Of a stretch of DNA of 64,000 nucleotides, positions 33,471 through 55,700 are shown piece after piece. The number at the start of each line of letters is the position of its first letter. Position 1 is the stretch's first letter. Source of the stretch: Punica granatum (taxonomy: Eukaryota; Streptophyta; Magnoliopsida; Myrtales; Lythraceae); assembly GCF_007655135.1 (NCBI RefSeq), contig NC_045128.1, positions 43,785,885-43,849,884 on the forward strand, in the 5' to 3' direction. The position numbers and the translations under genes were made by a program. The notes beneath the pieces were generated by a model that was given only the letters and a program-made list of their open reading frames with translations, did not search any database and was not told the origin of the DNA.

Positions 33471-33661
33471 AGATTCCAACATTTGTTCCCTCATCTCGCC
33501 AATGAACGGCCTTGGCTTTTCTTTTATCATAACTCCCAAACTTATGCCACTGATCCTCTTCCCCCCAAACTCACCGCCCAAACTTCATCTACAGCTTGCA
33601 TCTGATCCTCTCCACTAGGACTACTTATACTGCTCCCCTCCTAGCTCGGCCAATTCATGCA

Positions 33662-35331
33662 ATGGCAATAGACCGTGTCGCCAATAAAGCATCGTCGATG
33701 TCTCACCAAGACCGACCGCCTCATGACCAGGACAAAGATGACCACCACCAGAACCCCGTAGCATTCGATGCGTCGGTCCTCCAGTACCAGTCAGTCATCC
33801 CGAAGCAGTTCGTTTGGCCCGATGATGAGAAACCTTCCCCTTATGCCCCAGAACTTCTGGTTCCCCTGATTGATATAGGCGGCTTCCTCTCCGGGGACCC
33901 CGTCGCGTCCGTGGAAGCTTCCAGGCTTGTTGGCGAAGCATGCAAGAAGCATGGCTTCTTCCTCGTGGTTAATCATGGGGTTGACGGGCAGCTCATCTCC
34001 AACGCACACCGCTACATGGATGGTTTCTTCGGGTTGCCGCTTGGCGAGAAACAAAGGGCTCAGAGGAAGGTTGGTGAGCATTGCGGGTACGCCAGTAGTT
34101 TCACTGGAAGATTCTCCTCCAAGCTACCTTGGAAGGAGACCCTCTCCTTCCGCTATTCCGCCGAGAGAAGCTCATCTAATGTCGTCGAGGATTACTTTCT
34201 GAACACCATGGGCAAAGATTTCCTGCAGTTTGGGTAAGCGATTAACTTAATTATGTGACCCTCCAAGGCATCAGTTTTAATTATAAATATTGTGAGGATG
34301 ATGAAAAAATGAGTACACCATGTGCTATTCATGTTGAAGGTGTGCGTACGTATTATATAACCGCACATATATAGCAGTAGATTGATACGGCAGGTGAAAG
34401 TGTGGAGATACGTTATCCCACATAAAAAAATTAAAATAGAAATCACAAGCTTATACGAGGCTTGGGTTCAGTATCCTATCAGCTTAAGTTTTTGAATTAT
34501 AAATGGGTTCAAGTCTGTGCAGGTTCAAGTGAAAATTTTACAGAAAGTACAGTTTTTGTAAGGCCACAGCATTGATCATCGCATATTCTTGCAGGACGGT
34601 ATATCAGGACTACTGCGAGGCAATGAGCCGCCTGTCGCTGGGGATAATGGAGTTGCTTGGGATGAGCTTGGGGGTGGATCGAGCTTATTTCCGGGGGTTC
34701 TTCGAGGATAACGATTCGATCATGAGGCTCAATTACTATCCACCCTGCCAGAAGCCGGACCAGACCCTGGGCACGGGGCCCCACTGTGATCCTACATCCT
34801 TGACCATCCTCCACCAGGACCATGTTGGCGGGCTCCAAGTCTTTGTGGACAATCAGTGGCGGTCCATTAGCCCCAATTTTAATGCATTCGTCGTCAACAT
34901 CGGCGACACTTTCATGGTACGCCTTCCCTTTACCAAAGTTATCATAATATGATTAATTCCGTTTGCCACAATGTAATGAACTTGCTGAGGCCGGCAATCC
35001 ATATTCAATCTTAACTATATAATTTCACGCATTTTATCTCCAGGCGCTTTCGAATGGGATATACAAGAGCTGCCTGCACAGGGCAGTGGTAAATAGTGAG
35101 ACCCCGAGGAAGTCGCTGGCCTTTTTCCTGTGCCCAAAGGTTGATAAAGTGGTGAGACCACCGAGCGAACTGGTGAATCCGGCATGCCCTCGGGTATACC
35201 CAGATTTTACATGGGCTATGTTTCTCGAGTTCACTCAGAAACAATACAGAGCCGACATGAACACTCTCCAAGTCTTCACAAATTGGATTGACCAACACAA
35301 AATATCTGAGAAAGCTCTCTCAGTTCATTAA
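33662..35331 (+). CDS. GA20ox: Gibberellin 20-oxidase
   Basis: A 2-oxoglutarate/Fe(II) dioxygenase that converts GA12/GA53 stepwise to GA9/GA20, a rate-setting cytosolic step of gibberellin synthesis. Exons 33662-34233, 34595-34916 and 35044-35331 (GT-AG) give 393 aa, normal for the family. LPWKET (155-160) followed by LSFRY is the GA20ox signature, and NYYPPCQKP (237-245) is the 2-oxoglutarate/GA-associated motif. Iron ligands are His254, Asp256 (HCD) and His310. Arg320 and Ser322 (PRKS) bind 2-oxoglutarate. No key residue is missing. The start is the first in-frame ATG, after a TATA box and leader; upstream in-frame codons lack an ATG. In Arabidopsis a GA20ox gene (GA20OX2, At5g51810) lies next to plastid PGM (At5g51820), the same pair of families seen here. 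GA20ox genes are usually under GA feedback; no element for this is identifiable. Confidence 0.97.
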
Positions 35332-50723: not shown

Positions 50724-53700
50724 TCAGTATGTTCCACCGCCACTGCTGCCCCCTACACCACTAGGTGCCGCCGTCGTGTGGAAAGCTGACTGCAACTGGA
50801 GGAGATGGTGGTAGCAGTCAGCAGCAGTGGGACGATGCTCAGGATTAAGGTCCAAGCACCGATTCTGAAGCTCCCTCAGCAGCTTCGGGACCCCGCCATC
50901 CAGCCCACACGTCTTCACTAGGTACCCAACTCCCCATACGTCCACCTTCACATTGTGCAGGCCTCGCCCCATCTCAGGTGCGTGTGCTCCGCGAGCCACC
51001 AGCTCCCCCCCACGAGGGTATATCTGTGGGGATGCCACTGCCTCGTCGAACCCACAGACCACCCACTCACCCTCATTGTCAACCCGCCTCACCACCTTAT
51101 CCCAACTTAAGTCCCGGTGCATAAAGCACAAGTCATGGAGCGCCACCAGTGCCTTTGTCACGTACATTAGGGCCTCCACTAGCTGCTCAAAGCTCACAGG
51201 CTTAGACTTGATCCCTCTCGGCTTGAACACGTGAGCTAGATCCTTCTCTGATGATTGGACTATGAACTCTGCATGTGGCACTCGCTGGTTGAGGAAGTCG
51301 TATATTTCCTTAACTGCAGCCCACTTCCGCTTTGATGTGAATACTCTCGTGACAGTGTTGGGTGTCATCTCGATGATGTTCCCGTTACCCAAGTCAATCC
51401 TCTCAAAATCGCTATAAGGGGAGAGCTTGTAACTTGCCATATTGTTGAAGCAGCGATCGCCTAGCAGGGCTAGTAGGCCAGCTATACGATAGCATGGGAT
51501 TAGTGCCTTCATCCTATCAGATGGCAAGGTGAGATCGAGGGAGTATAGGTCAGTTCTAATGATGCGATCCTGTGATCGGCTCAATGCGCAGAATGTCACC
51601 ATGTACGCCACTGCATAGTAGCCCAAAATGTAGGGAAGATCCGCGAAAGTCCATAACAACTTTCCAATGATTGATGTAGATGGCTCGATGTAGCTATCCC
51701 TAAGTTGATCCGTCTCCTCCCCTCTCCACAAACAGAAGTTTCGCAAGAATCCTGTCACGTTGGGCCATTGGTCTTGCAGTGTCTCGGAAATCAAGCTTGA
51801 CGGCTTGCGGATCATAACAATCTCAATGGGGCAGAACTTGGATACAACCCGATTGATGCAATCATCCCATAGCCCGATAAATGAGTCTCGGCTCGAGGCA
51901 GTGGGAATGCTTATTCCAGGGTCGTTGCGGATGATAGGGCTTAGTATGTCGAATGTGAAGGCTCGACAGTCCAATGGCTCATGGGAAGTGATGAAGAAGG
52001 TTTCTTTGCCTTGAGGCAGGTCTCGATAGACATCTCTTCGTAGAGGAAATCGAAGCTCCTCAGGCGGCGGCTCCTGGAGGTACCACGAGAGCTCAAACAG
52101 GCTTGGGAGGGTAGGGGGCGGGACCCTCAAGCAGCCCACATAGTAGTCAGTAGGGTCCTGGAACTCCCATGGAGGAACCGCTGCAACATGACAATTTACT
52201 TCAATGTCTGGTGTATATATGATATATATACTATATAGACGTAAGTTCTAAGAACTCGAGATACTTTTACTATAAACATATAGCTAATCCTTTCAATCGA
52301 CTGAGAATTCTGGTTTTTTGCTTATGAACATTAGACTGGTGAATGTATCAGCCAAAATATGTCAGGACATATATGTCAATATGAGTAGGACTACGCAGCT
52401 GGTCTGTCTATGTGACTGATCATGAGAATAGATGCAAGACCTCAACATCTAAAGACTTCAAAATTTAAATTAAAGACCATAAAATTGTTCACCGAAAATA
52501 AATCATAAAATTTATTAATAGTAAATATAAACGTCTGTTTCACGTACATCTTACTGAGGGTTCCGCTGAGGGAAGCTGCACCCTTTCTGGGAAACCTGCG
52601 ATGGAGGAGTATTATTATTAACGACAGATAATATCATAACAAATCCCGGAAAACAAGAATTGCTTCAACCTACGATTGTGCGGCATTGATTGAATAGATG
52701 TATAACAACCTGAAGCAGAAGCTAAAGAAGACGATTTTCTCCTGCCGAAGACTTTGACCTGCTGACCCGGGACAAACCGATCAACGGAGAACCCCCTGAA
52801 AGGCCCATCCTCAAAGGCCTCCATAGGGCAAGCCACCGTGGCTTCATCGAAGTAGGTCAGCTCGTCTGCATTGAGAAAGCTCATGGACCCTTGGAGCTTC
52901 ACTCTACCACGGTGGTGCTCGCCTTCCTCCGCCCACAGGCTCACTGATTCCTCCCATGTCATCCTCACCTTCCCAATCCTACGGAGTTCCTTGCTCGATG
53001 CCAATGACGGGCCAATGACGTCTAGTAGGGATGAAGCGGGTTCATACCCTAGCAATAGGCTACCTCTACCACTCCCGGGGAAGAATGTTTCCATTCCAGC
53101 CGTCACGGCTAGTTGTTTTGCTCTTGCTGCACAAAAATGGCCGAAAAGAGAAAGCTCATGACCAATTTGATTAATGTGTCAAGGAGTCGTAGTGGATGAG
53201 CATTTAATCTGTGATATATGAAACCCTACACATCTTGACCTAGTTCAGTCCGATGTAATTTTCCGACGATACCTGTGAGAGGTAGTTCATCGTCCTTGAA
53301 AGAAGGCGGCAGAGGAACCCTACTGGTGGCGCCACTGAGACCAGCTGCTGCACGTCCCTCATCTCCGGCACCGGCAATGCTGCTGGAGACTCTGCTCTGT
53401 GGGTTTCGCATTCGGGGCCCCATGAATTGGGAGAGCTCCTCAAAGACCTCCTCGTCAAAAGAAGCGGGCAACCGATGGATTTTCCTCTCATAAGGAGAGA
53501 GCCTGAAGTAGCTCTTCCCAACTTGCTCTCTCTCCCCGCCCCTCTCCCACTCGTACACCTTCCGGAACTCGCCGAGCATGTTGTCCCACTTGGTGCCCGC
53601 AGTCTTCGCGTCTCGGTTGACTCCATGCCTGTTCAGAAACTCCGCCACTTCCCGGTCCTTCTCAGCTCTCGTCTTCCCCCTCCCAGGAGGCCCCGCAGCC

Positions 53701-54581
53701 GCATCTCCGCCGACGCCGACTTGGCCGGCGGGGTCAGATTCTGCCGACCCACCTTGATACTGCATCCTCCAAGCCCTAGCTAACCTGGAAAGACAGCAAC
53801 CAAGACACATATAAAAATATTCCCTAGCTCCAATTCTTCTTTTATAGAGAAAATGCAGCATTTTTATGTAATATATAAATTCATTTAGGTAAAATTAATT
53901 CCGACAGCATTTAATTATTTATGAAAAAAAAATCAGTGGCAGGAATTTTGAAACGAACCACAACATCTCGTTGGGCTTCCACACGGGGCTAACGTACTTG
54001 CCCTTGCGGAACTGGGGATGATGGTGTTGGTGGTGGAAGCCTGGCTGCTCTCCGGCGCCACCCTCGGGCTTGCTGGTCTCATGTCCAGTACCCCCGCCGG
54101 GGATGGGAGAGTGGGTGGTGGGAGACGAGGCCGTGTCAGAGGAGGAAGCGGTGGTGACATGGGCCTGCGGGATGTTATGGGTCGGGGAAGGGCTCGACTC
54201 GGAGGGCAGACCGGCCATCTGGGTTGCCTGCTTGGTGGGCAGCTGGTGATGAGTCGGTGAAGTCAGCAGCTTCCACTGGCCGAACCTCGGCCTCTTTGGA
54301 TTCACCGCTTCGAACTGCTCGTACGCACCTGCCGCACCGCCTGCCCCGATAGCCGGGATGAAGAGCGGGGCGGAGATGAACGGTGATCCGGTGACCACAA
54401 CCGCTGCGGGGGGAGGCGGGGGCTGGTGTTGATGGTGCGGAGGAGGCTGCTGTCGGGTCTCCGCGGAATCGTCGAGTGGATCCAAGGCGGGAGAAGAGGA
54501 GGGCTGAGGAGGTTGGGATGGTTGCGGTTGGTGCTGCTGCTGCTGCTTCTTTGGGGTGTCTGATAATTTGGTGTCAGCCAT
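50724..54581 (-). CDS. Trihelix-like DNA-binding protein fused to a C-terminal kinase-like (pseudokinase) domain
   Basis: Minus-strand gene, exons 54581-53959, 53784-53273, 53126-52710 and 52180-50724, all GT-AG and in frame: 1002 aa. Residues 1-195 are Gln/Pro/His-rich low-complexity sequence. About 198-330 is a trihelix/MYB-SANT-like domain: VWKPNEMLWLARAW (Trp201/208/213), then TKWDNMLGEFRKVYEWE (Trp274) and SYFRLSPYERKIHRLP. Residues 380-780 have no domain I recognise. About 785-980 is protein-kinase-like: HRDLSWDK (872-879), GFD at 894-896 where DFG is expected, HAPE (917-920), DVWGVG (931-936) and HRPTAADC. The catalytic-loop Lys and Asn are replaced, DFG is lost and no glycine loop is visible, so activity is doubtful. 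The likely location is the nucleus. The start is the first in-frame ATG (MADTKLSDTP). From memory, Arabidopsis At5g51800 ('protein kinase superfamily') is the positional counterpart. Confidence 0.9.
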
Positions 54582-55332: not shown

Positions 55333-55374
<42 letters not shown>

Positions 55375-55700
55375 GAGCTTTGAATGTCATTTTGTTGTTT
55401 GATTTGGGGTTTTAAGATCAGATGATAGAGATGTCTTGCATTTGCTTTGTAATATGCAGACACCATATAGAGAAGAGAAAGGCCACAGAGAGAGAGAGAG
55501 GAGAGTGAATTAGTGGAAACTGAGCTGTGAAGAGAGAGAGAGAGAGAGAGATCTTTGTAATGTTGTTGGGGGTGTGAGGGGATAAGCAGAAATTTTAAAT
55601 TTATAATCAATCAGAATATTTAAAAATATGAATTTATATGTTTGTTATGGAATTAATTTCTTACTTTTAAGATTTTCATTAAGTATTATATACTTATGTG
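54582..55700 (-). promoter_or_regulatory. Upstream region of the trihelix/pseudokinase gene, GA-rich
   Basis: Contains (TA)n at about 54771-54790 and three GA tracts (55343-55372, 55489-55502, 55530-55550), a common feature of plant proximal promoters and leaders. A TATA box cannot be assigned with confidence. Confidence 0.35.

Follow-up and report, generated by a model that had tools for sequence, protein, structure and literature searches.

Does a plant protein that joins a DNA-binding-type region to a protein-kinase fold on a single chain still work as a kinase? The question is raised by a gene in the 64,000-nucleotide stretch of Punica granatum DNA analyzed here (the window; contig NC_045128.1 of assembly GCF_007655135.1, forward-strand positions 43,785,885 to 43,849,884), which encodes a trihelix/Myb-SANT-like region and a kinase fold that departs from the active-site consensus. 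The gene is the pomegranate member of a family represented by AGLF/AGTFL in Medicago, SlGT11 in tomato and At5g51800 in Arabidopsis, and we favor, at a probability of about 0.6, the reading that the family contains a DNA-bound, non-catalytic regulatory pseudokinase module. The family itself is known; what merits further attention is the degeneracy of its kinase against intact outgroups.

The gene lies on the minus strand, and its four exons join into an open frame of 1002 residues that ends in a TGA stop:

53959..54581, minus strand: exon 1, with the ATG, the Gln/Pro-rich N-terminus and the start of the trihelix (residues 1-207 plus two bases of codon 208); open frame, GT donor
53273..53784, minus strand: exon 2, the bulk of the trihelix region; in-frame splice sites
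52710..53126, minus strand: exon 3, linker and conserved block 426-510 (mean pairwise identity of the block 0.81); in-frame splice sites
50724..52180, minus strand: exon 4, alpha/beta region and kinase fold through the TGA stop; splice site, stop and structure model

All three introns start with GT and end with AG, and the frame is kept throughout. A preliminary description made from the letters of this DNA had traced one frame through three clean introns, with junction coordinates that were exact to the base. The deposited Punica granatum protein CDL15_Pgr021824 (P0001 in our set of relatives) is of equal length and 100% identical over the searched residues 180-1002. Evidence at the RNA level is indirect: in two other relatives, open reading frames (ORFs) of 819 amino acids (P0075, on a 2995-base contig) and 832 amino acids (P0158, on contigs of up to 3528 bases) continue without a break from the equivalent of residue 206 to the end of the kinase, and barely extend across the first junction. 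Runs of AG dinucleotides lie at 55335-55372, 55487-55505 and 55531-55551, 750-970 bases upstream of the ATG at 54581; such runs can serve as sites for plant GAGA-binding proteins.

The state of the kinase fold was read against 205 proteins combined from three protein searches, of which the best 120 of 183, 67 of 67 and the best 120 of 223 matches were listed. Four are outgroups, namely the ferns Adiantum (P0181) and Ceratopteris (P0184), the conifer Cryptomeria (P0186) and the water lily Victoria (P0190); the other 201 are probably eudicot, judging from those rows that bear an organism name. No monocot or magnoliid was noticed among the named rows of these listed matches, which is not a claim of absence. 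In the first search (best 120 of 183), relatives shared 59-100% identity with the window protein over at least 94% of residues 180-1002, apart from one row with 57% coverage. The fold and the residues on which its activity would depend are as follows, with counts taken over rows that have a letter at the site:

50772..51422, minus strand: protein-kinase fold, residues 771-987
51345..51347, minus strand: Arg796, at the putative beta-3 Lys position in predicted strand 794-797; Arg or Lys in 196 of 196 rows
51297..51299, minus strand: Asp812, the putative helix-C acidic residue, placed from the predicted helix; Asp or Glu in 196 of 197 rows
51111..51119, minus strand: HRD, residues 872-874; Asp874 in 188 of 197 rows
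51096..51098, minus strand: Lys879 at the site of the catalytic-loop Asn; Lys in 181, Asn in 13, Arg in three and Ala in one of 198 rows, Asn in all four outgroups
51045..51053, minus strand: GFD in place of DFG, residues 894-896; Gly894 in 195 of 197 rows, Asp in all four outgroups

The predicted structure of residues 519-1002 is confident (mean predicted local distance difference test score, pLDDT, 86.3; predicted template modeling score, pTM, 0.84), and in this model the two-lobed fold matches solved kinases, with fold searches filled by kinases. At the sequence level the Pfam match to PF00069 (residues 830-939, E 2.5e-4) reached 21 bits, below the cut-off of 31.7. The APE motif (residues 918-920) and DVWGVG (931-936) are kept alongside HRD, whereas the catalytic loop reads HRDLSWDK, so that Ser876 and Lys879 occupy the usual Lys and Asn positions; the combination of kept and lost motifs is that of the preliminary description. 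Neither the DFG Asp nor the catalytic-loop Asn required by active protein kinases is present, and most relatives are alike in this. A kinase fold that lacks catalytic motifs, with the loss conserved among orthologues, is what identifies a pseudokinase on sequence grounds, and the window protein would be classed as one.

The same description had also named an intact VAIK motif in orthologues as a sign of error; loss of the VAIK Lys could not be established, given the retained residues at 796 and 812. Phe798, our initial candidate for a lost beta-3 Lys, was dropped because the predicted strand favors residue 796. If the modeled placement of 796 and 812 is right, only two metal ligands would be lost and not the whole site. 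Gly782 and Gly784 of the beta-1/beta-2 turn are common among the rows, in a glycine loop short of the full GxGxxG, and nearly every row has an acidic residue, Asp or Glu, at 896.

The loss is not peculiar to the pomegranate sequence. Among the best 120 of 183 matches, residue 894 is Gly in 119 and Arg in one, and residue 879 is Lys in 118 and Arg in two; with 120 of 120 relatives sharing Gly or Arg and Lys or Arg at the two sites, we rejected a local sequencing error. Across the 201 non-outgroup rows, Asp894 occurs in 0 of 197 with a letter, Asn879 occurs in 13 of 198, and the two are never found together in one row. The 13 comprise seven named Brassicaceae, three rows that group with Brassicaceae, Cicer P0204, Cucurbita P0199 and P0134. 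The last of these, 88% identical to the window protein, has Asn at the equivalent of 879 and still GFD, so this site varies even between close relatives.

By sequence, the degeneracy is not family-wide. All four outgroups have HRDxxxxN and Asp at the position of residue 894 (IDFDDA in P0181, IDFEDA in P0184 and P0186, VDFEDA in P0190), and the Cryptomeria and Victoria proteins carry trihelix and kinase on one chain. Their PF00069 scores all exceed the cut-off (32.4, 32.8, 38.5 and 33.3 bits for the ferns, Cryptomeria and Victoria), and the window protein, P0158, P0165, P0054, P0194, P0191 and P0200 fall below it. A quick maximum-likelihood tree, for which 198 of the 205 rows were used (seven covering <70% of the columns were left out), was rooted on the ferns and built without columns 876, 879, 893, 894 and 896. 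It placed a single change at residue 894; the branch leading to all 194 rows without Asp has a Shimodaira-Hasegawa-like approximate likelihood ratio test (SH-aLRT) value of 98. With 64 of the 192 inner branches left open and long branches in 12 rows, only the order of the outgroups was used. Six of the 386 columns between 600 and 985 split the outgroups from the 126 full-length rows, and both 879 and 894 are among the six, for which a simple count gives P 0.002, with the five active-site columns chosen post hoc. The preliminary description had held that orthologues with an intact DFG would point to a local error at this locus. Such orthologues do occur, but only as outgroups, and their intact residues together with the one change on the tree argue for an old loss instead. 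It would seem that the metal site, once intact in this kinase, disappeared after the water lilies had diverged and that the altered form has been conserved since; in an ancestor, the polypeptide probably included a kinase that worked.

As to where that kinase came from, the two fern proteins pass the cut-off (24.1) of PF17667, the fungal FunK1-type protein kinase family, over a short stretch (30.2 bits for P0181 and 24.7 for P0184), whereas PF17667 had no match in the window protein (E up to 1), in seven C-terminal pieces (E up to 10) or in Cryptomeria and Victoria (E up to 1). We treat a FunK1-type origin as a lead and not as a result. Five relatives (P0054, P0148, P0156, P0191 and P0200) were given names by their sources along the lines of "Crinkler effector protein 8" or "Crinkler (CRN) family"; these labels seem to have been transferred and to mislead.

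The DNA-binding end of the chain and the regions that separate it from the kinase are less well covered by domain models:

53418..53984, minus strand: trihelix/Myb-SANT-like region, residues 200-330, split by the intron at 53785-53958; PF13837 below cut-off, modeled helices
52732..52986, minus strand: conserved block, residues 426-510, mean pairwise identity 0.81 (126 rows); without a Pfam match, low-confidence model
51423..51965, minus strand: alpha/beta region before the kinase, residues 590-770, with a near-invariant LWRGEE (668-673); model and conservation

The window protein matches PF13837 at residues 200-293 (E 2e-4) with 22.1 bits, below the curated Pfam cut-off of 27, and the relatives P0062, P0088 and P0111 have PF13837 in their precomputed domain column. 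Helices were modeled at 203-217, 247-260 and 267-289 in blocks with pLDDT 74-90, around an insert (221-240) with pLDDT 42, and Trp residues 201, 208, 213 and 274 are invariant in 53 rows. The three predicted helices and conserved Trp residues are those of trihelix (GT) transcription factors, from which the protein differs in its sub-threshold PF13837 score, the variable insert between helices 1 and 2, and the kinase fold on the same chain. The proposal that such a domain and a degenerate kinase fold share one polypeptide thus stands, as the arrangement recurs in 126 full-length relatives.

Further along the chain, the statement in the preliminary description that about 400 residues lack a known domain is true of Pfam, which returned nothing for 426-510 or for 590-770, but much of 519-770 is confidently folded in the model, with 590-770 a largely confident alpha/beta structure. 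No useful sequence match to 590-770 was found in the PDB. A nuclease-like origin of this region, an idea prompted by Crinkler-type proteins, was set aside: a PDB search with the Cryptomeria piece gave one match at E 0.52, and fold searches returned kinases throughout, with nothing in its favor. Mean pairwise identity over the 126 full-length rows is 0.83 in the trihelix, 0.81 in block 426-510, 0.774 in the C-lobe and 0.689 in the N-lobe, as against 0.549 in the N-terminus and 0.48 in the linker. The excess of both lobes over the linker indicates that the kinase domain is still constrained.

The preliminary description further suggested that the architecture could define a little-studied plant family. 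A new family is excluded, as the AGLF/SlGT11/At5g51800 family, in which a chain of about 1000 residues holds both a trihelix/Myb-SANT region and a kinase fold as in the window protein, is already named in print. Published descriptions give its members a Myb/SANT or GT1 domain together with a "PKc kinase domain" and report floral mutants. AGLF of Medicago truncatula and PsAGLF of pea are nuclear proteins of about 1000 residues with SANT/MYB and protein kinase domains, and Medicago AGLF has a role in floral organ identity through activation of AGAMOUS genes. These papers speak of a kinase domain, whereas two catalytic residues are missing here; the Medicago protein is not among the named rows aligned. 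SlGT11 (Solyc03g006900) is nuclear, with a GT1 (trihelix) and a PKc kinase domain, and in its mutant the stamens resemble carpels and floral determinacy is lost (PMC7734826). The Solanum chilense relative P0035, 68% identical to the window protein, shares the GFD and Lys changes (ITGFDEA, WDKV). The function known for SlGT11 comes from the tomato mutant. At5g51800 is the Arabidopsis homologue according to the tomato paper (PMC7734826), in agreement with relatives' source names "like AT5G51800." Brassicaceae rows such as P0194 differ from the window protein in keeping Asn (WHNVM), yet have CGFD. An Aquilegia homologue was the top up-regulated gene in one early floral stage compared with the next (PMC7665038), and AGLF is mentioned in flower and leaf development (PMC9321518, PMC9697493) and in further papers (PMC13122891, PMC8792858); At5g51800 appears in tables only in PMC12114943 and PMC9544478. 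Within the excerpts searched, which did not include the primary AGLF papers, we found no statement of a degenerate or pseudokinase domain for the family.

How the pseudokinase module would act can be sketched. The trihelix part would place the protein on target DNA in the nucleus; for AGLF, activation of the AGAMOUS genes is published. The kinase fold would no longer transfer phosphate, because both metal ligands are gone, and together with the preceding alpha/beta region it may serve in binding or allostery, by recruiting partners or by positioning or controlling the DNA-binding part. Several observations weigh against this account. The outgroups are four proteins only, and the two from ferns are without the trihelix part as deposited. 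Asn879 in 13 rows needs five changes on the tree, and the PF00069 score is no clean separator, as P0148 reaches 33.7 bits, above the cut-off, and many non-outgroup rows have PF00069 in the precomputed column. Retention of the HRD Asp in 188 of 197 rows and of Arg or Lys at 796 in 196 of 196 would be odd for a fully dead site, and alteration of that Asp in the remaining nine blurs the picture further. In the literature, a yeast one-hybrid assay of SlGT11 on the TM29 promoter was negative and the At5g51800 mutant was reported without a floral identity defect (both PMC7734826), and the plant pseudokinase ILK1 has been reported to be active (PMC9403797).

The ILK1 report and the retained residues leave room for an atypical kinase that is still active, in which the HRD Asp would act with the basic side chain at 796, an acidic one such as that of 896 and a changed metal arrangement to phosphorylate transcription or chromatin partners. 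The near-universal acidic residues at 812 and 896 fit this alternative; the missing DFG Asp, the Asn that is also gone in 185 of 198 non-outgroup rows and the nine changed HRD Asp residues make us consider it unlikely. The kept basic and acidic residues, placed in beta-3 and helix C, and the common glycines at 782 and 784 would suit a putative metal-free nucleotide or metabolite sensor, in which a ligand bound in the cleft of the N-lobe would switch the protein's DNA binding or its choice of partners; its glycine loop is not a full GxGxxG, and we rate the sensor as rather unlikely. A third alternative, with function residing in the trihelix part and the kinase fold left to drift as a relic, would account for the lost catalytic residues and for an N-lobe (0.689) less conserved than the trihelix (0.83), but it sits poorly with a C-lobe identity of 0.774 against 0.48 in the linker and 0.549 in the N-terminus, and appears improbable. 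An artefact, in which the gene model joins two genes or alternative transcripts, is hardly credible, as the same chain recurs in the 126 full-length relatives, in Cryptomeria and in Victoria, and P0075 and P0158 are unbroken from inside the trihelix to the kinase end; a fusion of two genes by the model was rejected on these grounds.

Elsewhere in the window, ORFs at 33554-34237 and 34533-34952 on the plus strand belong to a 2-oxoglutarate dioxygenase gene, with PF14226 (DIOX_N) in the first ORF at E 2.1e-24. By its look it may be a gibberellin 20-oxidase.

A DNA-bound pseudokinase module in this family would bear on floral biology, given the action of AGLF and SlGT11 on stamen and carpel identity and the kinase domain ascribed to them. 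Somewhat short of even odds, and hence tentatively, we propose that an early seed-plant transcription factor with a working kinase on its chain, possibly a FunK1-type one, was stripped of the two metal-binding residues once the water lilies had branched off, and persists as a pseudokinase on DNA that now gates floral C-function genes. If this is true, the "PKc kinase domain" of AGLF and SlGT11 is a non-enzymatic regulatory module, and the water-lily and conifer orthologues are its natural active counterparts. Should eudicots have a pseudokinase where the water-lily, conifer and fern relatives keep an intact domain, hunts for eudicot substrates would be misdirected. The family would then allow a direct test of how a kinase linked to DNA binding turns regulatory, through domain exchange between lineages in an existing mutant.
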